Shown: positions 25,216-47,046 of the stretch, piece by piece
How the letters are laid out: every line of letters begins with the position of its first letter
How positions within the stretch are numbered: the first letter of the stretch is position 1
Source: an uncultured Eubacteriales bacterium
Lineage (GTDB): Bacteria > Bacillota > Clostridia > Oscillospirales > Ruminococcaceae
Assembly (NCBI GenBank): GCA_900314975.1
Contig: OMXI01000018.1
Coordinates: forward strand, 25,456-89,455
Reading direction: 5' to 3'
Length of the DNA stretch: 64,000 bases
Notes under the pieces: generated by a model
The model's input: only the letters and a program-made list of their open reading frames with translations
Told to the model about the DNA's origin: nothing
Database searches by the model: none
Translations under genes and position numbers: made by a program

Positions 25216-27255
25216 ATGAACGTGTTAACGGGGATAAAAAAAGATTTCAAAAGGGTAAAAAATACAACCGCGCGCCGTATTATCATCGCACTTGCCGCAG
25301 CCCTGCTGGTCGGCGCTGCCGCGGTAATGCAGCAGCCTCTTGCTTCAATGGCTCTGTCGCCTGTAAAGTGGGCTGTGGCTTTTCTTGAGCCGTTTATAGT
25401 TTCCTTTTTACTTTATATACTCGTCCAAAAGCCCAAGCCATCGGTCTTTTGCTTTATAAAATATATGTACCTTGTCTGCACACCTGCGCTGCTTATGCTT
25501 TTGACAGGGTTTGTCTTTACACCAAGCAAAGCCGACCTGTACTCGCAGCACTTTTTCACCCGCTTTCTGCCGTGGTGGGCAACACTGTGGTGGCTGGGTA
25601 CAGCGCTTGCGTATCTGCTTATGCACGCCGCCGAAAGCGCCTTTAAAAGCGCTCTTGAAAAGGACAGCCGCGCCGTAGGCGTGGTCTATGCCCTCGCCGT
25701 GATGTACACCCCGCAAAAAACGATAAGCAAGCAAAAAAGGCAGGGCAAAGCCAAGTGGGTATCCATAACCCTGTGCATAGTGATGATAGCGCTCGCAGTC
25801 TTTATCGGCACAGTCACCCTGTTTTTGCACAACGTCTACTCCAATATGGATTTTGAAGCCATACTGTTTACGATACGCTTTGCCGCAGGCGGTCTTGCGC
25901 TTGAGGACATCATTTCAGGCACTTTACTCACCGTGCTTTTCGCGATCGTGACAGGGTATCTTTGCTTTCACCTGCTCAAAAGTATGCGAAACGATAAGCT
26001 CGTTGTCGTCGACACGCACAGAGGCGGCAAGTACACCCTCGTGATGAACGGCAGAAAAAGAGCCGTGCATATCGTGCTGTCTGCCGTGCTGCTTATCACA
26101 AACATAGCTCTGTTTTCGGGCGAAACTCACTTTGTCCGCTATCTTTCGATGAAAAACAAAACGTCCGACATCTACGAGACCTATTACGTAGCGCCCGATG
26201 ACAGCGTGCTGACCTTTCCCGAGAAAAAGCGCAACCTTGTCTACATATACCTTGAATCTATCGAGAACACCTACGCCTCAAAAGAGGCAGGCGGCTCGCA
26301 GGATAAAAACTACATCAGCGGTCTGACCGAGCTTGCAGGTGACAAGGACAGCGTAAACTTTTCAAATACCGACACCCTCGGCGGCGCATCGGTCTTTGTT
26401 CCGTCCATTACGTTCACACAGGGCTCGACCGTCGCGCAAACGTCGGGCGTGTCGCTCAATACCAAGATATTCCCGCCCTATACCGCGGCAGAATTCCCAA
26501 ACACCGTGCGACTTGAGGATATCCTGCACCAAGGCGGCTATAACCAGCTTTATATCGAAGGCTCAAAGGGCGAGTTTTCAATGTACGACAAATACGTCGG
26601 CAGATACGAGGACAGCAAGGTCTTTGACAGAAAAACCGCCGCAGACCGCGGCTATTCCGACGAAAGCGCGGATTACATCTGGAAATGGGGAATTGAGGAC
26701 AGAAAGCTTATCGAGATAACAAAGGAGCTTATCACCGACATCTCCCAGCAGGACAAACCCTTTTTCGTGACCATGTACACCATGGATACCCATACCTTTG
26801 AAACGGGTCACCGCTGCCCCAATTGCGACAGCAGCATATCCAGCGACTACCTTGCGTCTGTCGACTGCTCGTCAAGACTGGTGAGCGAGCTTGTACAGTG
26901 GATAAAGCAGCAGCCGTTTTACGAAAACACTACCGTCATACTTGTCGGTGACCACCTTGGCAACGAAAAGACCACAATGGTAGATATCCCCGTTGATTAT
27001 GTGCGCACCACCTACAACTGCATCATTAACCCCGCAAAGCAGCCCGCCAACGCCAAAAACCGAGTGTTCTCATCGCTTGATATGTTCCCCACTACCCTTT
27101 CGGCGATAGGCGTGCAGATAAAGGGCGACAGGCTGGGGTTCGGCACAGACCTTTTCTCGCAGACACCGACGCTGTGCGAGCAGCTGGGCAAGCAGGAGTA
27201 TATGGATAAGCTCGAACAAAGCAGCGAGTACTACGACAACAAATTCTACAAATAG
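25216..27255 (+). CDS. OpgB/LtaS-like phosphoglycerol transferase
   Basis: A 679-residue membrane enzyme of the alkaline phosphatase superfamily. Several helices fill residues about 20-300. An extracytoplasmic sulfatase-type domain follows (about 330-660), with metal and substrate motifs YIYLESIENTYAS, GSTVAQTSGVSL (nucleophile segment, resembling OpgB more than LtaS), MYTMDTHTFETGH and LVGDHLG. Enzymes of this group move phosphoglycerol from lipid to glycans or teichoic acid outside the membrane. The ATG follows AGATAGGGGACTAAAAA. It converges with the glycolipid operon, so envelope lipid and polymer genes cluster here. The precise acceptor is unknown. Confidence 0.87.
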   Translation: MNVLTGIKKDFKRVKNTTARRIIIALAAALLVGAAAVMQQPLASMALSPVKWAVAFLEPFIVSFLLYILVQKPKPSVFCFIKYMYLVCTPALLMLLTGFVFTPSKADLYSQHFFTRFLPWWATLWWLGTALAYLLMHAAESAFKSALEKDSRAVGVVYALAVMYTPQKTISKQKRQGKAKWVSITLCIVMIALAVFIGTVTLFLHNVYSNMDFEAILFTIRFAAGGLALEDIISGTLLTVLFAIVTGYLCFHLLKSMRNDKLVVVDTHRGGKYTLVMNGRKRAVHIVLSAVLLITNIALFSGETHFVRYLSMKNKTSDIYETYYVAPDDSVLTFPEKKRNLVYIYLESIENTYASKEAGGSQDKNYISGLTELAGDKDSVNFSNTDTLGGASVFVPSITFTQGSTVAQTSGVSLNTKIFPPYTAAEFPNTVRLEDILHQGGYNQLYIEGSKGEFSMYDKYVGRYEDSKVFDRKTAADRGYSDESADYIWKWGIEDRKLIEITKELITDISQQDKPFFVTMYTMDTHTFETGHRCPNCDSSISSDYLASVDCSSRLVSELVQWIKQQPFYENTTVILVGDHLGNEKTTMVDIPVDYVRTTYNCIINPAKQPANAKNRVFSSLDMFPTTLSAIGVQIKGDRLGFGTDLFSQTPTLCEQLGKQEYMDKLEQSSEYYDNKFYK

Positions 27256-34083: not shown

Positions 34084-35490
34084 CTACCTCAATTTCCTTT
34101 CGGGGTGCTTTTTATAGAATTCCTCTTTGTCCCTGTACATATCCACATCAGCAGTATGCATCGCATCTCTTACGTCACAGCCGTTGTCGCCGTAGCTGTA
34201 CCCGACCGCAAAGCTGACACCGTCAGGGTCCTGCGACCTATCCTTGAGCAGCGCGATCTTTCTTTCGCACTCGTCCTTGTCACAGCCCACCATAATAATT
34301 AAAAATTCATCACCGCCCGCGCGGTATATCTCATCACCCTCAAAGACCTCCTGAAGAGCTATCGCAGCCTTTTTGAGCAACAGATCACCCGCAGAGTGTC
34401 CGTATCTGTCATTGGTCAGCTTCAAGCCGTTAAGGTCTGCAAAAATCACACAGTAAGGCTCGCTGAACGACTCGCTGTCAGCAGTCATCGCGCTTACGCG
34501 GCTGTTCATAGCATTGCGGTTCTTCACGCCTGTCAGAAGGTCAGTGTAGCTGATATGCTCAAGCTGTTTCATCAGCTTGTAGCTTGCGACCTCTGAAGAA
34601 AGAAAGTACGTGGTAAGCTCCAGCGTCTCCTTTATGCGCAGAGCATTTTCCGTCGCAAAATTAGTCGCCCAGATAAATCCCAGCACCTCATTGTTGTACC
34701 GCAGCGGGAACATCACCACGCTGTCAACGCCGGCTTCCTCAAGTGTCAGATACCACGGATTGTTTATCTGTTCAATGTATTTCATATCCTGCTCGTTTTT
34801 GATGATAAGGCAGTCATTGTCGCCTATCGTGTCTATCCACGACAGCGCTATATCGTAAAAGTTGACAAACTGCGTTACCCTCTTTATCACGCTGCCCTCT
34901 CTTATATTCGTCGCCAGCATCGAACAGGTACCCGTACCTGTATCCACAAGCATCAGCGAGCATACCTCTGCCTTACAGATAACACGGATATCCTTGATAA
35001 CGTCCTTCATCGTCTGTTCAAAATCGTCCGTGCCGTGCAGCTTGATACAGGTCTTTATCACGTCAGAGTAAATGTGCATAGCCTGCGTGGACATAAGGTC
35101 AAGGTCAGTGACATCCGCTATCTTCGTCGAGTATGTGCAGTAGCCGACATCGCCTTCCTCATAGTCTATAGGCATAACAAAAACATTGAACCACAAATTC
35201 GGCTCATTCATATATACATACGTGTGCGTAGGCTTTTTCAGTATCGCCGCGCTGTAGCACAGATCCTCAAAGCTCAGATTTTTCGGAAGATACTTTTCAT
35301 ATGCAGAGTTGGGAACAAACTTTTCTATCGCCCTGCCGCCCACATCATACGGCGGGTTTTCGATAAGGCGGATGTATTCCTTATTACCCGTAACTATGCG
35401 TATATCGCCATAGCTGCCGTCGCTGAATTTTCTGACGGACATAATACCCGTCATAGTCACAAAGCCGTCGGCAAACTTCTGAAAGTCCAT
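34084..35490 (-). CDS. PAS-GAF diguanylate cyclase, paralogue of 17882
   Basis: A 468-residue protein collinear with the one at 17882: PAS-like N-terminus (MDFQKFADGFVTMTGIMSV, SDGSYGDIRIVTGNKEYI), GAF-type centre (ICKAEVCSLMLVDTGTGTCS, VVMFPLRYNNEVLGFIWATN) and an intact GGDEF domain (DLLTGVKNRNAMNSRVSAM, IFADLNGLKLTND, YRAGGDEF). It should make cyclic di-GMP in response to an internal ligand. The start at 35490 is set by GAGAGGTG; an upstream in-frame codon has no ribosome site. It is monocistronic with its own promoter at 35579. Confidence 0.93.
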   Translation of the reverse strand: MDFQKFADGFVTMTGIMSVRKFSDGSYGDIRIVTGNKEYIRLIENPPYDVGGRAIEKFVPNSAYEKYLPKNLSFEDLCYSAAILKKPTHTYVYMNEPNLWFNVFVMPIDYEEGDVGYCTYSTKIADVTDLDLMSTQAMHIYSDVIKTCIKLHGTDDFEQTMKDVIKDIRVICKAEVCSLMLVDTGTGTCSMLATNIREGSVIKRVTQFVNFYDIALSWIDTIGDNDCLIIKNEQDMKYIEQINNPWYLTLEEAGVDSVVMFPLRYNNEVLGFIWATNFATENALRIKETLELTTYFLSSEVASYKLMKQLEHISYTDLLTGVKNRNAMNSRVSAMTADSESFSEPYCVIFADLNGLKLTNDRYGHSAGDLLLKKAAIALQEVFEGDEIYRAGGDEFLIIMVGCDKDECERKIALLKDRSQDPDGVSFAVGYSYGDNGCDVRDAMHTADVDMYRDKEEFYKKHPERKLR

Positions 35491-35578
35491 TTTTACACCT
35501 CTCCGCTGAATTTGCACCCGCTGCCCCGAAAAAAACATTTTTTGCTGCAATTTCAGCACAAATTAACAACTTTTTTTC

Positions 35579-35709: not shown

Positions 35710-36069
35710 TCAGATCATCTCTTCAAGCAGCTGTGCCGCATCACTGACGCACCCTCTGCAAGGGCGCAGCACCGAGCCTGTCAGTCCGCCTTTAAGCTCG
35801 CGGCACATAACGCTCTTGTTCATCTGCCTGAACTTCTCTTCAAGCTGCGCCGCCTTTTCGTCAGCTTGCTCGGGGAACATTCTGCGCAGAACATACTCTG
35901 CCGCAAGCACCGCACCGCACTTGCCCATACGTCCGCCCGCAAACTGCGCAGCCGTGCTTTTAGCCTCTTTCTGCGACAGCCCTGCCTGCTGCGCAAAAGC
36001 GCACAGTACCGCCGCCGAGCAGCTGTAAAAATGCTTGTGGTTCTCCACAGCCTGTTGTGCCAAACTCAT
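35710..36069 (-). CDS. C_GCAxxG_C_C family redox protein
   Basis: A 119-residue Cys-rich protein of the C_GCAxxG_C_C family (PF09719), thought to be redox- or metal-active in anaerobes. The ordered cysteines are visible: HFYSCSAAVLCAFAQQAG, GGRMGKCGAVLAAEYVL, VMCRELKGGLTG and LRPCRGCVSDAA. It follows the BMP gene by 18 bp and is probably the third gene of that transcript. Family members occur beside many unrelated operons, so the link to the receptor is weak. Confidence 0.85.
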   Translation of the reverse strand: MSLAQQAVENHKHFYSCSAAVLCAFAQQAGLSQKEAKSTAAQFAGGRMGKCGAVLAAEYVLRRMFPEQADEKAAQLEEKFRQMNKSVMCRELKGGLTGSVLRPCRGCVSDAAQLLEEMI

Positions 36070-36087: not shown

Positions 36088-37296
36088 TCAGTCCGTCACC
36101 GTGATTATGTCCTTCAGCACATAATGGAATGTCGGCGCTGACGATTGCTGGTTCTCAAAATATTCTTTGTTAAGGTCATACGTATCGCTTGGGTCATCTG
36201 GGTCAACACCAATGTAATCCCCCTTGAAAACGTGTATCCTGCCCTTGCTCATGTCATTCACAGCATCATCCACCAGCTTTTTGCAGCCCTTGGGCGCGAT
36301 AGCAGGGTTTATCTCCATCATCTCCACCCAGCCCTCTTTCAAGCCGCCGCTTGCGTCGTTTCCGTTGATTGTGCCCTTGACGTTCTTTTCGATCTTCCTG
36401 TTGTCAAGCACAGCATTTACAGCCGAAATGATGTATTCCGACCAGTCAATGCGGCAGCTTATCAGCGCACTTGTCGGCGCGACGTCCATCATATCCTGAT
36501 TGTAAGCAACGTGATAAACAGGGTACGGCTTGTCAGCGTTTTCGCACGCAATAGCCGAACCTACAGTGTTTGAGTGATGTGAGATAATAACGCAGCCTTC
36601 CTCGATAAGCTGCGCCGCCGCGTCCTTTTCGAGCGAGTAGCTGTTCCACGTGTCAATGTACTTGACCCGCATAGTCGCCTCGGGACACTGCGAGCGCACA
36701 CCCATAAGAAACGCCGTGTAGCCCGAAATTACCTCTGCCACAGGGTACGCCGCCACAAACCCGACGACCGCCTGCTGCTTTGTGATGACCTCGTTGTCTA
36801 TCATCTCCTTGAGCTTTGCGCCTGCGACCATTCCGCTGATGTAGCGCCCCTGATATATCTCGCCCATGAACGTGTGGTAGTTTGACAGCTTTGGCTCGTC
36901 ATTTGCGTTGTCGCACGTCGCCTCGCAGAACTGCACATCAGTGTATTTCTTTGCCGCCGCCTTTGCGGTCTCACCGTAGCCGTAGGAGTTTGTGAAGATT
37001 ATGTCACAGCCTTCCTTTGCAAGCTCCTCTATAACGCTTTGAGCGTCCTCGTACGGTACATTGTTCTTTTCGATAATCTCCACCTTGTCGCCAAGCTCGG
37101 TGCGCAGCCTGTTTGTCGCGCGTATAAAATTCGCACTGTACGGAGTGCTTGCGTCACCGTCGTAAATAAACCCGACTTTTGCATGGTCCTTTGCGCCCGA
37201 GGTCACGCTCTGGATATAATGATAAGCGTAGAAAAGAGAAAGAGCCAGCACAGAAGCGATTATCGCGCATATGATATTAGGTTTTTCTTTGCTCAT
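36088..37296 (-). CDS. BMP/PnrA-family substrate-binding protein, membrane-anchored
   Basis: A 402-residue extracytoplasmic binding protein of the basic membrane protein family, whose known members bind purine nucleosides for ABC import. Characteristic stretches are AKVGFIYDGDASTPYSANFI, CDIIFTNSYGYGETAKAAAK, VGFVAAYPVAEVISGYTAFL and CVIISHHSNTVGSA. The N-terminus is a membrane helix (IICAIIASVLALSLFYAYHY) without a lipobox, so it stays anchored. No permease or ATPase gene is near. The start at 37296 follows AGAGGAAGAGGAAA and lies 20 bp inside the HD-GYP gene, so the two are coupled. A role as ligand-sensing partner of that receptor is inferred. Confidence 0.88.
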   Translation of the reverse strand: MSKEKPNIICAIIASVLALSLFYAYHYIQSVTSGAKDHAKVGFIYDGDASTPYSANFIRATNRLRTELGDKVEIIEKNNVPYEDAQSVIEELAKEGCDIIFTNSYGYGETAKAAAKKYTDVQFCEATCDNANDEPKLSNYHTFMGEIYQGRYISGMVAGAKLKEMIDNEVITKQQAVVGFVAAYPVAEVISGYTAFLMGVRSQCPEATMRVKYIDTWNSYSLEKDAAAQLIEEGCVIISHHSNTVGSAIACENADKPYPVYHVAYNQDMMDVAPTSALISCRIDWSEYIISAVNAVLDNRKIEKNVKGTINGNDASGGLKEGWVEMMEINPAIAPKGCKKLVDDAVNDMSKGRIHVFKGDYIGVDPDDPSDTYDLNKEYFENQQSSAPTFHYVLKDIITVTD

Positions 37297-40200
37297 TTTC
37301 CTCTTCCTCTCCCTTCTGATGATCACCGCGTGCGATAGCATCAAGGTCTATCTTCTTATCATCTATCAGCTTTAAGAAGATGTCCAGAAGCTCGGGGTCA
37401 AACTGCGTTCCCCTGTTCTTTTTCAGCTCATCCAGAACGTAGTCAAAGTCCTGCTGTTTTCTGTATACTCTGTTCGCCGTCATCGCATCAAAAGCGTCTG
37501 CAACAGCGATTATCCTGCCGTAAAGCGGTATCTCGTCACCCTTCAGACCGTCTGGATATCCGCGTCCGTCATATCGCTCGTGGTGGTACCTCGCACCCTC
37601 AACAACGTGGTCAATAAGCGTAAAGTCCTTGAGTATCTCCGCACCCTTTATAACGTGCGATTTCATTATCGCGTATTCCTCATCATCGAGCCTGCCGGGC
37701 TTGTTGAGTACCCTGTCGGGAATAGCTATCTTGCCTATGTCGTGCAAAAGCGCCGCCTTGCGCAGATTTTCGCACTCATCATCGGTAAAGCCGTACTCCT
37801 TTGCTATCAAAGCCGAGTACTCTGAAACACGGTACGAGTGTCTGCTCGTGCGCAGGTCCTTTGCATCGACCGTATTTGCAATAGCAAGGATAGTCTCGTT
37901 GCCCATCTGTACCTGTTTGAGAGCCATTTCCAGCTTTGTCTGCTGAAGCTCCAAGGTGCGCTGCATAGTGCGCCTTGAAATGAACCACGTCAGCCAGCCC
38001 ACAAAGATACCGCCGACGATTATAATGTACAGTCTGAACCAGGTGTTGTCGTAAATCGCCTTTTTCTTTTCAAACTCGTAAGAGCTTTCCTCGATTATCT
38101 TTCCGCTGTCGTCGCGTATAGCTATGCGGAATGTGTAGTTACCCGGCTTTATGTTCGTGTACGGTATCGTCGAAAGCTCGCTTTGCTTAACGTTCGTCCA
38201 ATCGCTGTCAAAGCCCTCAAGCTTGTACGAGACCGTCGGGTCATCAAGCGAGTAGTTTATTATCTCGGGTACAAAGTCTATCTTGACCGTGTCACGCTCG
38301 ACCTTAAATTCAGTTCCGCGCTCGATGCTCATCTGCTTGTCGTCAAGCTTTACCTCGCTGACCATAAGCCTGAAATACTTTTGCTTTAGCACATAGTCGT
38401 CAAGGTTCATCATAAATACTCCGCGCCCCGAAGAAAGATAAACGTTTCTCTCGCTGTCCACCGCGTTCCAAGCATTAGCGGTCAGCGCGCCTACCAGTCC
38501 CGTTTTGGAGTTCAGCACCACGTATTCGGGCGAATCCTGTTCAAGCAGCTGCTTTTTGTTGACCACATAAATGCCCGCACTTCCGGGAACAAGTATGTCG
38601 CCGTTTCCGTCAAGTATAATGTCGTAGTTGTTTGAGTACGGAAAAGCCTTCAGCTGCTTTATGCTGCCCTCTGCCATTGCGCATATGCTGTTTGAGGTAA
38701 CGATATAAATGCTCGCATCATCGGGGTCAAAAACCATTCGCAGTATTACCCCCGAGGTCAGTCCGTCTTTTTTATCAAGCACTCTCTCAACGTTTCCGTC
38801 CTTTATAACAAGGATACCGCTTCCGTCAGTACCCGCGTACAGCGTGCCGTCGGGCGTCTGCAAAAAGCACAGCGTCGGCGTGTGACCCGTCTTTTCATCA
38901 TACGGTATCTTCCCCGTTATCCTATCATTTTTCAGGAAGAACAACCCGTTCGAGCTGCTGATAGCCATAGTTCCGTCCTGCAGCTCCAGACATACTCTCA
39001 CTCGCTCGCCTATCTCTTTAAATCTTTCCGAATAGTTGGTTATCTTGTTGAACCTGTCCGAGCAAACAAGCCCCGCACCGTAGCTGCAAACCCACAGCTT
39101 CTGGTCGCTGTCGGTCATCATGCATCTTATTCGGCTGCCCTGCAGCATCTCGGTGAGGTCATTTTTCATCGTCGTTTGAGCGTCAATGTTGATTATGTCA
39201 AGTCCGTCGTCAGTACCCGCGTAAAGCAGACCGTTTCGTATAGCCGTCGAGTTTACGACCGTCTTTCCAAGACCCGTGTCCGCGTAGATGTCCTTGAACG
39301 ACGAGCGGGAAAGCCGCAGCAGCCCAAGTCTTGAAGATGCAAACCACAGATTTCCCTGATAGTCTGTTATCATGCTTTCGACCGAGTGATCAAATTCGCC
39401 CGTCTCCTGTCTGATGAACACACTGCGCTGATCGATATAGCCTATGCCGCTGTCTGCGCATACCCACGTCATATCGCCCTCACGCATAGGGTAAATGTTG
39501 TTTATCTTGGTCGTTGCATCGCAGAAGGTGTTCTGCCACAGCTTGAGTTCCTCACCTCTTGTAAGATACTTGCTCACCATTCCGTCAGTAGTCCCGATGT
39601 ATACCGAGCCTTCATCGTCAAACGCGCAGGCGGATATCTTTCTGCCGCCGTATGCCGCAGTGATTTTGTTTGTCACCTTGCCGCCCTTTAGTATAAAAAG
39701 CTCACCCGTGTTGCTCACAGCCGCTATCCTGCCGCTCTGGTCAGCGCTCATGCGGTCAACATAGCCAATGTCCTCAAGCTTGTCGCTCACCGACATTCCT
39801 ATCTTCATTTCCATGGTGACTATGCCTTCGGATGTGCCGATATAGTATTCGCCCGTCGAGCTTTGAATGATAGAGCGTATCGAGTCCGAGGGCAGACCGT
39901 TTTTAGAGTTGATAACGTTAGCGACCTTTTCATTTATCACGATAACAACGCCGTTGTCGTTCGTGCCTATCCACAAACGACCCTCGCTGTCAACGTAAAG
40001 GCAGTTGACGTTTCTTACCTCCTCAATGTCCGACCTCAAAACGAACTCGCTTCCGTTGTACCTGTAAAGTCCCGCGTAAGTGCCTATCCACAGCACGCCC
40101 TCGTTTGTCTGCGCGATAGCGTTCGCATGACCGCTGGACAAACCGTTTGAACCGTCATACACAGTCTGTATGTAAGCAGTGCTCATTCCCTGCCCCTGCG

Positions 40201-40864
40201 CAGAAACGCTGTTGCCTGCAAATCCAAAATTCGCCGTCACAAATACTGCTATCGCCGCAGTTATCGCCGCCGCAGACTTTGCAGCCGCTTCAGCCTTTTT
40301 CAGCTTTCTTTTGCGGTGCGCCCTTACCAGCTTTATCAGCAAATACATAGCTATCGACGTGAACAGCTTGTCGGGGAACTCAATGTAAAACTCACCGATA
40401 AGCCCCGCAGGATACTTGTTCAAGCCGTTTTCCATAAGCATATCCATAGCGCCGTTTCCCCACATATTGCCCGTGTCGCCGCCGTAGAATATGAAGTTGA
40501 TTATCGCCGACATTACCGCGCAGCCCGTAGTTACCGCGCCCGAAAGAGTCATAGTGTAAAAGAACGTGTCAAAGTATCTCTTCCTCGAAAAGTATCCCAC
40601 ACTCAAGCCTATAAAAATGCTCACGACCATATACAGCGCCGCGCCCTTTGCCCAGAACGAGAATATGATGTTCGCCGAAACACCTACGATAGCGCCCGGT
40701 ATCGGACCCATAGTGTACGCCGCAAAGAACGTGCCGTATGAATCGAACCAACCCGGCAGCGAAAACTTGCTTGCCAGTTCGCGCCCGAAATAGTTGGCGT
40801 AAATGCAAAGCAGAAGTATTACTATCGTACGCAGATACGATGATAATGTACTTTTTTTATTCAC
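37277..40864 (-). CDS. Membrane receptor: S-component-like domain, propeller, Y_Y_Y and HD-GYP
   Basis: A 1195-residue protein in five parts. Residues about 10-190 are a multi-helix membrane domain resembling substrate-binding (S) components of ECF vitamin transporters (WFDSYGTFFAAYTMGPIPGA). A further helix leads to an extracytoplasmic two-component-regulator propeller (about 225-800, repeats such as GVLWIGTYAGLYRYNG and EGRLWIGTNDNGVVI). Next come a Y_Y_Y domain (about 830-920, YKLEGFDSDWTNV), a membrane helix (about 935-955) and a coiled segment. The HD-GYP phosphodiesterase at about 985-1160 shows LLHDIGKIAIPD, YHHERYDGRGYPDGLKGDEI. It should degrade cyclic di-GMP on an external signal. 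The GTG start at 40864 follows AAAAGGAG. Confidence 0.88.
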   Translation of the reverse strand: MNKKSTLSSYLRTIVILLLCIYANYFGRELASKFSLPGWFDSYGTFFAAYTMGPIPGAIVGVSANIIFSFWAKGAALYMVVSIFIGLSVGYFSRKRYFDTFFYTMTLSGAVTTGCAVMSAIINFIFYGGDTGNMWGNGAMDMLMENGLNKYPAGLIGEFYIEFPDKLFTSIAMYLLIKLVRAHRKRKLKKAEAAAKSAAAITAAIAVFVTANFGFAGNSVSAQGQGMSTAYIQTVYDGSNGLSSGHANAIAQTNEGVLWIGTYAGLYRYNGSEFVLRSDIEEVRNVNCLYVDSEGRLWIGTNDNGVVIVINEKVANVINSKNGLPSDSIRSIIQSSTGEYYIGTSEGIVTMEMKIGMSVSDKLEDIGYVDRMSADQSGRIAAVSNTGELFILKGGKVTNKITAAYGGRKISACAFDDEGSVYIGTTDGMVSKYLTRGEELKLWQNTFCDATTKINNIYPMREGDMTWVCADSGIGYIDQRSVFIRQETGEFDHSVESMITDYQGNLWFASSRLGLLRLSRSSFKDIYADTGLGKTVVNSTAIRNGLLYAGTDDGLDIINIDAQTTMKNDLTEMLQGSRIRCMMTDSDQKLWVCSYGAGLVCSDRFNKITNYSERFKEIGERVRVCLELQDGTMAISSSNGLFFLKNDRITGKIPYDEKTGHTPTLCFLQTPDGTLYAGTDGSGILVIKDGNVERVLDKKDGLTSGVILRMVFDPDDASIYIVTSNSICAMAEGSIKQLKAFPYSNNYDIILDGNGDILVPGSAGIYVVNKKQLLEQDSPEYVVLNSKTGLVGALTANAWNAVDSERNVYLSSGRGVFMMNLDDYVLKQKYFRLMVSEVKLDDKQMSIERGTEFKVERDTVKIDFVPEIINYSLDDPTVSYKLEGFDSDWTNVKQSELSTIPYTNIKPGNYTFRIAIRDDSGKIIEESSYEFEKKKAIYDNTWFRLYIIIVGGIFVGWLTWFISRRTMQRTLELQQTKLEMALKQVQMGNETILAIANTVDAKDLRTSRHSYRVSEYSALIAKEYGFTDDECENLRKAALLHDIGKIAIPDRVLNKPGRLDDEEYAIMKSHVIKGAEILKDFTLIDHVVEGARYHHERYDGRGYPDGLKGDEIPLYGRIIAVADAFDAMTANRVYRKQQDFDYVLDELKKNRGTQFDPELLDIFLKLIDDKKIDLDAIARGDHQKGEEEENEQRKT

Positions 40865-42714: not shown

Positions 42715-43485
42715 TTATCTGATTGCGTCTTTCATCTGCTTTACAAATTCCCCCACGGGCTTTGCAGAATCCTTACCGTGCTGTGCTATTTTGCGAACTA
42801 TCGCAGAGCCGACTATTACGCCGTCTGCGAACTGCGACATATTCTTTGCCTGCTCGGGATTTGAAATACCAAAGCCGACTGCGCACGGAATGTCCGTATT
42901 TTCGCGGATAACGCTTACCAGCTTGGAGATATCGGTGGTTATCTGCGAGCGCTCGCCCGTTACGCCGAGCGAGGAAACTATGTAGATAAAGCCGTCTGCG
43001 TCTTTAGCTATCATTGCGACCCTGTCGGCGGAGGTAGGTGCGATAAGCGAAATGAGGTCAACGCCGTACTGCCTGCAAATCGGCAGGAACTCGTCCTTTT
43101 CCTCAAAGGGAAGGTCGGGCAGGATAATGCCGTCGATACCTATCTGCTGACAGGTGCTGATAAACCTTTCAGCGCCGTAGGAAAATACTACGTTTGAGTA
43201 GGTCATAAACACAAGCGGAACGCTCACGTCTTTGCGAAGCTCGCGCACAAAATCAAATATCTTATCGGTAGTCACGCCGCCGGAAAGTGCGCGGATATTA
43301 GCGCCCTGGATCACGGGTCCTTCGGCGGTCGGGTCGGAAAAAGGTATGCCAAGCTCGATAAGGTCTGCGCCGTTCGCTGCCATTTCGCGCACGATCTTTC
43401 CCGTTGTTTCAAGGTCGGGATCGCCGCAGGTGATAAAAGGAATGAACGCCTTGCCGCCCTCAAAAGCCTTTGCTATATTACTCAT
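42715..43485 (-). CDS. trpA: Tryptophan synthase alpha subunit
   Basis: This subunit cleaves indole-3-glycerol phosphate to indole and glyceraldehyde 3-phosphate. The 256-residue TIM barrel has the catalytic Glu region [19 protein letters not shown] and the catalytic Asp region [17 protein letters not shown]; the phosphate-binding end is [13 protein letters not shown]. Its start overlaps trpB by 8 bp, as expected for partners of one complex. It is the last gene of the operon. Confidence 0.97.
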
Positions 43486-44668
43486 TGATATCCTCCCCTC
43501 TGTATCTTGCGATAGCTGCGCAGTCCTTGTCGCCTCTGCCTGAAATGGTGACGATGATTATTTTATCCTTGTCCATTGTCGGCGCAAGTTTCATAGCGTA
43601 AGCTACTGCGTGTGCGGATTCTATTGCGGGAATTATGCCCTCGGTGCGCGAAAGGAACTCAAAGGCATCGACTGCCTCGTCGTCGGTAACGGGGACATAC
43701 TCTGCTCTGCCGATATCGTGCAGGTGAGCGTGCTCGGGTCCTACGCCGGGGTAATCAAGTCCTGCGGAGATAGAATAAACGGGCGCTATCTGACCGAACT
43801 CGTCCTGGCAGAAATAGGACTTCATGCCGTGGAAGATACCGAGTCTGCCTGTATTGACGGTAGCAGCAGTTTCAAAGGTATCTATACCTCTGCCCGCAGC
43901 CTCGCAGCCGATAAGGCGAACGTCCTTGTCGCCTATGAAATTATAAAAGCTGCCTATGGCATTTGAGCCGCCGCCCACGCAGGCGATCACAGCATCGGGC
44001 AGTCTGCCCTCGTATTCAAGTATCTGCTCTCTTGCCTCTTTTGAAATGACCGACTGAAAATCGCGCACGATAGTCGGGAACGGGTGCGGTCCCATTACGG
44101 AGCCAAGGCAATAGTGGGTATCGTCGATTCTGCTCGTCCACTCGCGCATAGCCTCGGAAACGGCGTCTTTGAGCGTTGCGGTGCCACTTGTGACGGGCAC
44201 TACCTTTGAGCCGAGCAGCCGCATACGGTAGACGTTGAGCGCCTGTCTCTTTGTATCCTCCTCGCCCATAAACACTACACATTCCATACCCAGCAGTGCC
44301 GCAGCCGTAGCTGTTGCAACGCCGTGCTGACCTGCGCCTGTTTCGGCGATAAGTCTTGTTTTGCCCATTTTCTTGGCAAGCAGCGCCTGACCCAGCACGT
44401 TGTTTATTTTGTGCGAGCCTGTATGGTTGAGATCCTCGCGCTTGAGGTATATCTTTGCGCCGCCCAGCGTTTTTGTCAGCTTATCGGCATAGTAAAGCAG
44501 CGACGGTCTGCCAGCGTAGTTTGCGAGCAGGTCGTTAAGCTCGCGCACGAAATCGGGGTCATTCTTGTAATGCTCGTAGGCTTGTTCAAGCTCGATGACC
44601 GCGTTCATCAGCGTTTCGGGGATATACTGTCCGCCGTGTATACCGAAACGTCCCTTGGGGTTTGTCAT
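43478..44668 (-). CDS. trpB: Tryptophan synthase beta subunit
   Basis: This PLP enzyme condenses indole and serine to tryptophan. It has 396 residues, the standard TrpB1 length. The PLP lysine lies in [19 protein letters not shown], the catalytic Glu in [10 protein letters not shown], and the phosphate loop in [10 protein letters not shown]. It is preceded by GGAAAGATAAAA and lies two bases after trpF. No anomaly is seen. Confidence 0.97.
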
Positions 44669-44670
44669 TT

Positions 44671-45279
44671 TTATCTTTCCTTTCTCACGGCAGAAACGAA
44701 ATCTGCCATTTTATTTTTATCCTTTACGCCGTTCGTTTCGAGGCTGCTGCTGGCATCGACTGCAAAGGGGTGAAGCGTTTGTATCGCCTCGCCGACGTTT
44801 TGCGCTGTCAGCCCGCCTGCTAAAAAGAACGGTCTTTGTATGCCTTTTATAAGCGAATGGTCAAAGGTTTTTCCTGTACCTGTTCCCGAATCGAGAAGGA
44901 CGAAGTCTGCCGCCGATTTTTCGGCAAGCTGCACGTCCTGCTCGGATTTGATTTTAAATGCTTTGATTATCGGCTTGCCTGCTTGGGCGCGAAGATTGGC
45001 GATATAGCGCTCGTCCTCACTGCCGTGCAGCTGTATGATATCAAGCATTTCGGCGTAGTAATCCATTATGTTTTCTATCGGTTCATCAACGAAAACGCCG
45101 ACTTTTTTGATACTTTTATCATAGTCATCAAGATAGGAAGCAAGCTCGCAGAACGTGCCAAGACCTATTGAGCGCTTGAAGCCCTGCGTGAGAATAAAGC
45201 CGACGTAGTCTGCCGAAAATTCGGCTGCGGCGATAACGTCGGGGGGATTCATCATTCCGCAGAGTTTGATTTTAGTCAT
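44671..45279 (-). CDS. trpF: Phosphoribosylanthranilate isomerase
   Basis: A 202-residue TIM barrel performing the Amadori rearrangement to CdRP. Typical motifs are [11 protein letters not shown], with the catalytic Cys near residue 7, [30 protein letters not shown] (catalytic Asp) and [16 protein letters not shown]. It overlaps trpC by 4 bp. Confidence 0.96.
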
Positions 45280-46061
45280 TGTATCTCACACCGCAGCTGT
45301 TTGAGCTTTTGTGCGATATTATCTGCGCGCATAAGCGCCTCGCCGATAAGCACTGCGTCAACACCTGCGTCCTCAAGCTGTGCAACGTCTGCGCGGTCTT
45401 TTACGCCGCTTTCGGAGACGAACAGAATGTCGCTTGGGACAAGCTCTCTCAATCTGCGGCTGTTGCCTGTATCGACTGAAAAATCGGCAAGGTTGCGATT
45501 GTTTACGCCGATTATCCTTGCGCCTGCGCTGACGGCAAGCTTTACCTCGCTTTCGTCGTGCGCCTCGACAAGCGCCGAAAGACCGAGCTGTGCGCAGATG
45601 TCAAGGTAGCTTTCAAGCTGCTGCGGCGAAAGTATCGAGCAGATAAGCAGCACGGCTTTTGCGCCAAGCAGCTTTGCCTGATATATCATATACTCGTCGA
45701 CTGTGAAATCCTTGCGCAGACAGGGTATGGCGACCGCCTGCGCTATCTGCTCAAGGTACCTGCTGCTGCCGAGGAACTTTGTCGGCTCGGTGAGTACAGA
45801 GATACAGTCTGCACCTGCGGACTGATACTGCCTTGCTATATCAAGGTATGGGAAATCGGGCGAGATGATGCCTTTTGAGGGGCTTGCCTTTTTGCACTCG
45901 CAGATGAAAGATATGCCGCCCTTGCCAAGTGCGGTCTCAAACTCAAAGCTGCCTTTTTCAAGGGCGAATGCCTGCTGCTTTATCTGTTCGGGCGAAAGGC
46001 TTTTCTTTGCTGCCTCTACGCGCTCGCGCGCGCTTTGTGCAAGCGTTTCAAGTATGGTCAT
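45276..46061 (-). CDS. trpC: Indole-3-glycerol phosphate synthase
   Basis: A 261-residue TIM barrel that closes the indole ring of CdRP. Conserved motifs are FICECKKASPSKGII (catalytic Glu and Lys), VLTEPTKFLGSSRYL, CLRKDFTVDEYMIYQAKLLG, IIGVNNRNLADFSVD and VSESGVKDRADV. It stands alone, not fused to trpF, and overlaps it by 4 bp. TCTCC-rich sequence upstream gives the ribosome site AAGGAGAAAC. Confidence 0.97.
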   Translation of the reverse strand: MTILETLAQSARERVEAAKKSLSPEQIKQQAFALEKGSFEFETALGKGGISFICECKKASPSKGIISPDFPYLDIARQYQSAGADCISVLTEPTKFLGSSRYLEQIAQAVAIPCLRKDFTVDEYMIYQAKLLGAKAVLLICSILSPQQLESYLDICAQLGLSALVEAHDESEVKLAVSAGARIIGVNNRNLADFSVDTGNSRRLRELVPSDILFVSESGVKDRADVAQLEDAGVDAVLIGEALMRADNIAQKLKQLRCEIQ

Positions 46062-46071
46062 TTGTTTCTCC

Positions 46072-47046
46072 TTATCTGTTTGAGACCTCTATTACCTTTT
46101 CAAGAGTTTCGTATGCTTTGCCGCTGTCCTTGCCGCCCACGCAAAGTGCTGCACCTGCGTTGAGCAGGACAGCGTCTCTTTTAGCGCCTTTTTCCTCGCC
46201 GCGAAGGATACGGCGGGTTATCTCGGCGTTTTCCTGCGGAGTGCCGCCCTTGATGTCCTCGTGGGTGCCGCCTGCAAGCCCGAACTGTGAAGGCTCGATG
46301 TCATAGCTTTTGAACCAGCCCTCCTTGAGCTCGCAGATGTGGGTCGGTGCGGCTACGGATACCTCGTCGAGCTTATCGGTGCCGAAAACTACCATTCCGC
46401 GCTTTACGCCGAGGTTCATAAGCACCTGCGCAAGCGGCTCGACGAGAGAACGGTCGTAGACTCCCAGTACAAAGCGCTTGGGGCTTGAGGGGTTGGTGAG
46501 AGGTCCGAGGATATTGAACACGGTCCTTATGCCAAGCTCTTTTCTTATCGGTCCGACATACTTCATTGAGGTGTGGTATTTCTGCGCAAAGAAGAAGCAG
46601 AAATTCGTTTCGTCAAGCATTTCGCGGCATTTTGCTACGTCCTGCTGGATATTTACGCCGAGTGCTTCAAGGCAGTCTGCTGTGCCGCAAAGCGACGATG
46701 CTGCGCGGTTGCCGTGCTTTGCTACCTTGATACCCGACGCTGCGATGACCATTGCGGAGGTGGTGGAGATGTTAAAGCTGTGGGCATTGTCTCCGCCTGT
46801 GCCGACAATCTCAAGCAGGTCGTCGTCATTTTCAAACTTTATGGCTGCATCGCGCATTGCTGCTGCGCAGCCTGCTATCTCCTCGATCGTTTCTGCTTTT
46901 GTGGACTTTGTGGAGAGCGCTGCAAGGAACGCTGCGTTCTGCGTGGCGCTGGTCTTGCCCGACATTATCTCGCTTATTACCTCGTATGCCTCGTCGTATG
47001 TGAGGTCCTGCTTATCTACTATTTTAACTATTGCTTTCTCGATCAT
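46072..47046 (-). CDS. trpD: Anthranilate phosphoribosyltransferase
   Basis: A 324-residue enzyme joining anthranilate to PRPP. The PRPP/metal motif [19 protein letters not shown], the loop [20 protein letters not shown] and the second metal motif [15 protein letters not shown] are present. It is somewhat short against about 335-345 aa but complete. It follows AAGGGGGATATAAC and lies 13 bp after trpG. Confidence 0.96.

Follow-up and report, generated by a model that had tools for sequence, protein, structure and literature searches.

In Vibrio cholerae, the periplasmic binding protein NspS governs the membrane-bound cyclic-di-GMP enzyme MbaA by associating with it in a ligand-dependent manner; the ligand is a polyamine, and MbaA contains GGDEF and EAL domains (excerpted text of PMC8967002). 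In the XylFII-LytS system, the sensor sits in the membrane and its outer domain is the docking site for a binding protein (excerpted text of PMC9769921). Here we describe a pair of overlapping genes in a 64,000-nucleotide stretch of DNA (hereafter the window; positions 25,456 to 89,455 of contig OMXI01000018.1, assembly GCA_900314975.1) from an uncultured Eubacteriales bacterium of the Ruminococcaceae. One gene encodes a receptor composed of an energy-coupling factor (ECF) S-component domain, a double β-propeller, a Y_Y_Y domain, a transmembrane helix and an HD-GYP domain; the other encodes a binding protein of the BMP family. The pair resembles NspS-MbaA in its logic, in that a dedicated binding protein is encoded with a membrane receptor, the contact between the two being a proposal here, and it resembles XylFII-LytS in the proposed docking of its binding protein on the outward part of the receptor. 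XylFII-LytS has xylose as its ligand, a four-helix-bundle outer domain and a histidine kinase output.

The S-component fold also occurs as a receptor domain in the 5TMR-LYT receptors, where it is sometimes fused to GGDEF and EAL domains; a word search of the retrieved part of PMC11109136 found mention of neither propeller nor phosphodiesterase, and a count of zero for HD-GYP. In contrast, the S domain here precedes a signal-peptide-like segment, a propeller and an HD-GYP domain, and the receptor has a BMP partner. The Bacteroides sensors BT4663 and BT3049 share with our receptor a double propeller and a Y_Y_Y domain outside the membrane, but differ in having a hybrid two-component output (PDB title). 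A review of cyclic-di-GMP sensing treats binding-protein domains fused to such enzymes, and a word search of its retrieved part found no propeller and no NspS (PMC8846402). No published description of this gene pair was found among the matches listed, which were mostly titles and abstract openings and included few subscription journals. The system is a variant of binding-protein-coupled sensing that is new in its parts and arrangement. To our knowledge, the MbaA system lacks a propeller, an S domain and a BMP-family protein, and BT4663 and BT3049 have neither an S domain nor a BMP partner.

We propose that the two genes encode one dedicated, purine-responsive cyclic-di-GMP phosphodiesterase receptor complex, a reading that we consider reasonably probable. 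In many bacteria of the rumen and gut, two transporter parts, namely a binding protein of purine type and a membrane subunit of vitamin type, seem to have been converted into a sensor. If this is true, these little-studied bacteria would contain a cyclic-di-GMP system that senses purines and is made from pieces of transporters, through which outside nutrients could be read as a signal for behaviour. It would also yield a testable guess at the ligand, a docking face and a cleavage site, tie the S-component fold to signalling through a new arrangement, and hint at a family of nucleoside ECF transporters.

Architecture and conservation of the gene pair

Pfam identifies HD_5 (2e-40), Reg_prop (3.9e-26) and Y_Y_Y (5.7e-11) in the receptor, and NCBIfam identifies ECF_S_CD3073 over residues 19-183 (E 4.7e-16; 58.9 bits, where the equivalog cut-off is 180). 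Together with the structure models described below, these matches bear out the preliminary description of the locus, made from the sequence before any database search, as encoding a 1195-residue protein with an ECF-S-like domain, a propeller, Y_Y_Y, a membrane helix and HD-GYP. The same description had a helix-anchored BMP protein encoded by a gene that starts 20 bp inside the receptor gene, with no permease or ATPase nearby. The coordinates, the PF02608 match and the hydrophobic N-terminus agree with the first point, the ATG of the BMP gene sitting within the receptor gene; as for the second, the genes that follow on the same strand encode a C_GCAxxG_C_C protein and a GGDEF protein, neither of them a permease or an ATPase. 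The coordinates of all features are collected in Table 1.

The conservation of the pair was surveyed from both sides. For the BMP side, contigs were scanned with four BMP proteins and the best 80 of 212 relatives were kept; the scan was aimed at peptides of this clade, other BMP proteins being outside its scope. An HD-GYP receptor lies directly upstream on the same strand in 77 of these loci as identified by script, and in L107, which was excluded by the overlap filter and read separately. This amounts to 78/78 of the loci that have upstream sequence, L100 and L126 starting at a contig edge. Judging by the record titles, 38 of the 80 loci are from Lachnospiraceae and 13 from Ruminococcus, and 42 carry a rumen-type isolate name.

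For the receptor side, thresholds were placed by eye where other architectures begin. Among the 299 genomes of one family (f31), 25 contain an S domain with an E-value of at most 1e-55, and 21 of these have an adjacent BMP gene on the same contig. In the others, the BMP gene is split by a contig end (G593), the receptor is a fragment (G632), or no BMP gene was found genome-wide at E 1e-115 (G493 and G726); conversely, all 22 BMP genes of the clade in this family are in receptor-bearing genomes. Among the 396 genomes of the window's own family, 15 contain one with an E-value of at most 1e-60. In eleven of these, the window included, the BMP gene is intact and adjacent; in one it is broken (G807); and three have none: G113 gave no genome-wide match at E 1e-10, and G965 and G905 have no BMP gene beside the receptor, where the search was made. 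The two families together give 40 receptors: for 32 the neighbouring BMP gene is intact, for one it is split and for one broken, five are without an adjacent BMP gene, and one is a fragment. A sample of 341 genomes from the class gave three receptors, all with BMP, but none is additional, the three being the window and two genomes counted above; some of the BMP-side loci (L numbers) likewise come from the same genomes as the receptor-side set (G numbers). The adjacency proposed for survey in the preliminary description is therefore found from either gene, and its concern that HD-GYP homologues might occur mostly without BMP is answered by the majority of surveyed receptors that carry it. The two-gene receptor is real and widely conserved, and its parts and their linkage are firm.

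Propeller sites that track the BMP gene

The receptors without an adjacent BMP gene differ from the others in the propeller. We took as conserved the 132 propeller columns whose letter is retained by 90 percent or more of the BMP-linked rows. In the first three BMP-less receptors, seven of these columns are changed in two or more, and five are changed in all three. Fourteen long-branched BMP-linked receptors served as controls: among 364 trios formed from them, none reaches either count (maxima 6 and 2; the trios overlap and are not independent), and none of 1000 random trios has five columns changed in all three (maximum 2). The other domains of these three receptors show no excess of changes relative to the long-branch trios; an apparent excess in the last helix (four columns), seen in the first count with random trios, vanished with the long-branched controls.

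In a larger set, in which some of the 27 added BMP-linked rows are from genomes already included, the 93 BMP-linked rows deviate at zero, one or two of the seven sites (65, 25 and 3 rows respectively), and the five BMP-less receptors at five to seven. The two added BMP-less rows are no independent test, because they are kin of G113 (0.67-0.71 identity). The five do not form one clade (approximately unbiased test, p 0.000135, quick tree); the tree requires three changes to account for them, and two independent pairs sit on branches with good support. A FastTree analysis had placed one BMP-less receptor at the base, but this was superseded by a mixture-model tree that nests it, and we therefore do not rely on the order of gain and loss. 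At some sites (295) the outgroup receptors share the letter of the BMP-linked rows, and at others (832) that of the BMP-less ones; the counts at the propeller sites do not distinguish gain from loss. In G807, where the BMP gene is broken off (a 229-residue frame, L300:4884-5573), the receptor deviates at one of the seven sites and has 7/50 conserved columns of region 226-380 changed.

Four of the sites, 295, 310, 356 and 375, are changed in all five BMP-less receptors, and retain the consensus letter in 88, 87, 93 and 86 of the 93 BMP-linked rows. As judged by hand from the predicted strand order, they coincide with or adjoin A-B or C-D turns in blades 2-4. Since this puts them on one face of the propeller, we propose that the face of blades 2-4 around these residues may be where the BMP protein docks. 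Two other candidate lines of evidence for docking were rejected. The distance matrix of BMP correlates best with that of the propeller (r 0.87; partial 0.76 given HD-GYP), though common ancestry may account for much of this; and the conserved C-terminal tail of the BMP protein has a similar counterpart in transport-type BMP proteins.

The BMP protein: pocket, anchor and search for a permease

PF02608 is matched by all 48 members of BMP set A4. The closest solved structures to the BMP protein are 3s99 (E 2.1e-33) and AtzT (6pi5; E 9.9e-28), which belong to the same family and share its pocket residues. In AtzT, guanine lies between Tyr45 and Trp194, with Ser97, Glu165, Asn218 and Asn220 (excerpted text of PMC6834077). 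By sequence alignment, the counterparts here are Y53 (80/81 rows, with one gap), W217 (81/81), S104 (79/81), E188 (81/81), H241 (77/81) and D or N243 (81/81). By its residues the pocket is of the purine-base type found in AtzT and 3s99, and nucleosides may bind too. The nucleoside ligand put forward in the preliminary description is therefore retained as to its purine class and adjusted to a purine base. The same set of residues is present in 31 or 32 of 32 transport-type BMP open reading frames, and thus marks the class of ligand rather than signalling.

AtzT is thought to serve uptake (PMC6834077, excerpt), whereas here the BMP protein has a membrane anchor and is linked to a receptor. A hydrophobic N-terminal segment is present in 80 of 81 receptor-BMP rows, the remaining row being cut by a contig end. 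A lipobox-like pattern occurs in six of the 81, three times within the helix, once ahead of it, and ambiguously in L142 and L154, where by eye it is possibly real; the transport-type reading frames have a lipobox in 31 of 32. On the evidence of these sequences, receptor BMPs carry an anchor helix in place of the lipobox of their transport relatives. The transport loci have BMP, ATPase and permease genes in a row in 25 of 31 cases. In the window's genome (91 contigs), no free BMP-type permease was seen, although one could have been missed since the assembly is 98.48 percent complete: its four BPD_transp_2 matches all lie within two other operons, one sugar-type (with Peripla_BP_4 and an FGGY kinase) and one Liv-type (with Peripla_BP_6). 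Genome-wide, there is a single match to the BMP protein at E 0.001.

These results bear on the possibility that the BMP protein does no more than supply a distant permease, as binding proteins for transport ordinarily do, its placement only co-regulating uptake with signalling. The pocket, identical to that of transport-type BMP proteins, is compatible with such a role. Nevertheless we consider it very unlikely, in view of the anchor helix, the sugar-type and Liv-type binding proteins that the genome's permeases already have, and the propeller sites that track the presence of BMP. A single dedicated sensor made of transporter parts, as the preliminary description suggested, is well supported, if indirectly, by the adjacency seen from both genes, the propeller changes shared by BMP-less receptors and the fact that no free BMP-type permease was seen in the genome.

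The S domain and the internal signal-peptide-like segment

The S domain was aligned over 59 rows, comprising the window and 58 of 65 loci with identity kept below 85 percent. At E 0.01, ECF_S_CD3073 is matched by all 59 rows, Pfam ECF_trnsprt by 44, the folate S family by 40, and 5TM-5TMR_LYT by 19, so that in contrast to the 5TMR-LYT receptors the domain here lies nearer to the S components. The window's own row scores 63.8 bits against ECF_S_CD3073; this is under the equivalog cut-off, and the domain is therefore a relative of CD3073 rather than its equivalog. For PF07694 (5TMR-LYT), the E-value is 0.011 with the whole protein and 0.00076 with the isolated domain (19.6 bits, under the cut-off of 24.6). 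The structure model has a mean predicted local distance difference test (pLDDT) score of 96.9. In a Foldseek search of the PDB with this model, the first ten hits and the twelfth are S components (RibU, FolT, ThiT, BioY and one other) with probability 0.77-1.00 and a TM-score to the query of 0.39-0.59, and no match is below E 0.001. From the family matches and the model, residues 10-190 are identified as an S component; the preliminary description had considered whether they might match a different sensor membrane domain.

Relatives of the S domain also occur alone, in 25 loci (L247, L248, L249, L250, L252 and L256-L275). The first five to be read contain EcfT, ATPases and PNP_UDP_1 or IU_nuc_hydro, and one has PfkB too; these five are the only ones with EcfT matches. 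A purine nucleoside phosphorylase or nucleoside hydrolase is encoded in 13 of the 25, eight of them among the 20 loci fetched later; the controls, 58 receptor loci and 31 transport BMP loci, have none. The lone relatives are thus a candidate family of nucleoside ECF transporters.

Between the S domain and the propeller, the receptor has a basic stretch and a hydrophobic core followed by [AV]xA. The motif is present in 62 of 66 receptor rows, compared to 30.5 in shuffled tails; two of the 67 receptor reading frames away from contig edges, of 433 residues and without the junction region, were left out. Elsewhere, the observed and shuffled counts are 16/66 and 9.4 (last helix), 24/80 and 12.4 (BMP helix), and 15/66 and 12.2 (first S helix). 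The motif is also present in seven of nine relatives with other architectures, and in one of three BMP-less receptors checked. Because this conserved segment resembles a signal peptide, signal peptidase probably cleaves the receptor into two parts behind residue 222. The preliminary description had not mentioned this.

Cleavage would allow a different arrangement, in which the receptor is a polyprotein: the freed S domain would be a working ECF S component on a shared ECF module, with the anchored BMP protein joining it to the propeller/HD-GYP subunit and acting as its donor, so that the S component feeds purines to the module while the propeller reports them. Import and cyclic-di-GMP signalling would then share one set of parts, making the locus a transceptor in which one subunit serves both uptake and sensing. 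We think this unlikely. It draws on the cleavage motif, the existence of split-gene relatives, an EcfA-EcfA-EcfT module (plus a second weak CbiQ match) in the genome, and the finding that N24, D41 and D165 of the receptor S domain are common to all 13 S proteins near nucleoside enzymes, with K166 in 11 of 13. However, other receptor-invariant residues, for example N133, Y160 and F163, are mostly not shared with those proteins, and we know of no S component that requires a binding protein. The AxxxA motif of helix 1 (for EcfT) is present in only 6/66 receptor rows, but loss of this motif was dropped as a sign of lost transport: it is present in just 1/23 other S rows, and so the comparison decides nothing.

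Several relatives of the receptor were noted. S-domain/propeller receptors with other outputs are found in L062, L063 and L064 (hybrid histidine kinase, by Pfam), in L291 (GGDEF) and in L287. L063 and L064 encode the S domain in a gene of its own, and there, in line with the proposed cleavage, the propeller protein by eye starts with a signal-peptide-like segment. Shorter S-domain HD-GYP proteins without a propeller (589-713 residues) are encoded at L251:6355-8496, L083:6175-8313 and L254:6735-8504, the first of them near a gene for a ZnuA-like binding protein.

Propeller and output domain

The model of the propeller has a pLDDT of 91.4, and the closest solved structures are 3v9f and 4a2l/4a2m (BT3049 and BT4663), the latter protein being a sensor of heparin and heparan sulphate (PDB title). 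This likeness, and the five receptors that have no adjacent BMP gene, raise the possibility that the receptor senses something else, for example an oligosaccharide on the propeller as in Bacteroides, and that BMP merely modulates the response. We regard this as quite unlikely, given that BMP is kept with most surveyed receptors and its pocket is nearly invariant.

In the HD-GYP domain, the HD and HHExxDGxGY residues, presumably metal ligands, are invariant in 66/66 receptor rows, and 4mcw is among the closest solved structures. The inner end of the receptor therefore probably destroys a signalling molecule. We take cyclic di-GMP to be the likely substrate, a reading with which the 21 GGDEF matches in the genome agree.

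Proposed mechanism and its weight

We suggest the following mechanism, in which docking, ligand, cleavage, enzyme activity and substrate, and direction of response are all inferred, whereas the pairing of the genes, the domains and their conservation, and the residues of pocket and active site are observed. The BMP protein would be held at the outer face of the membrane by its N-terminal helix, close on a purine base (or nucleoside), and dock on the first propeller. The S domain would probably be a second purine-binding part, transporter members of its family often being encoded beside nucleoside enzymes. Cleavage after residue 222 would leave an S subunit beside a subunit containing propeller, Y_Y_Y, helix and HD-GYP. 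Docking would be relayed through Y_Y_Y and the helix to alter the breakdown of cyclic di-GMP.

Several observations weigh against this proposal. Five of the receptors stand without a BMP gene beside them, and BMP is thus dispensable for at least some of them. Among the propeller controls, one of the 1000 random trios, containing two sisters, has 10 columns changed in two or more members, compared to the seven observed; six of the seven changed columns fall in region 226-380, but this region was drawn after the first result; and the pattern rests on two to three independent events, which is too small a number to reach significance in a formal test. In the BMP pocket, the position of AtzT Asn169 is Gly in 79 of 81 rows, and the best NCBIfam model for the protein is a putative vitamin B6 binder (40.6 bits, against a cut-off of 400). 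Nucleoside phosphorylase or hydrolase genes are found at 0/58 receptor loci. The substrate of the HD-GYP domain is uncertain, because the proline of GYP is retained in 38 of 66 rows and a solved relative among the closest, 5z7c, cleaves 3'3'-cGAMP. Finally, no c-di-GMP-I riboswitch was found as a possible output, a result that is uninformative since the control genomes likewise had none.

Gene layout and neighbouring genes

Table 1. Positions in the window of the two genes and of the features described in the text
Feature	Position	Strand	Details
Receptor gene	37277-40864	minus	1195 aa; S-component domain, signal-peptide-like segment, double propeller, Y_Y_Y, transmembrane helix, HD-GYP
ECF S-component domain	40280-40855	minus	residues 4-195; CD3073 model match, structure model, Foldseek
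Internal signal-peptide-like segment	40199-40279	minus	residues 196-222; likely cut after SVSA (residue 222)
Double β-propeller	38330-40183	minus	about residues 228-845; Reg_prop
Stretch with sites 295, 310, 356, 375	39740-39982	minus	proposed BMP-docking face, blades 2-4
Y_Y_Y domain	38099-38242	minus	residues 875-922; Pfam
Transmembrane helix ahead of HD-GYP	37976-38044	minus	about residues 941-963; hydropathy in homologues and own sequence
HD-GYP domain	37355-37912	minus	about residues 985-1170; HD_5 2e-40
BMP-family binding protein gene	36088-37296	minus	402 aa; PF02608 2.9e-28
Overlap of receptor and BMP genes	37277-37296	minus	20 bp
N-terminal membrane anchor helix of BMP protein	37210-37275	minus	about residues 8-29

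The receptor gene starts with GTG, with AAGGAG ahead of the start codon. Upstream of it, positions 42715-47046 of the window contain what we take, from the translations, to be tryptophan synthesis genes. The GGDEF and C_GCAxxG_C_C genes, at 34084-35559 and 35710-36069 respectively, are on the same strand as the BMP gene. A similar small gene also comes after BMP in L097 and L099. A third gene is not a general part of the system, because related downstream genes are present in just nine of 80 loci; the one that was scanned is transglutaminase-like.

Weak BMP-like matches also occur within open frames of 640-930 residues (G127:C5, G008:C23, G134:C45 and others). At L091:2779-5692, a transport-type BMP gene is directly followed by a chemoreceptor gene with sCache_3_3, possibly another BMP-coupled sensor.

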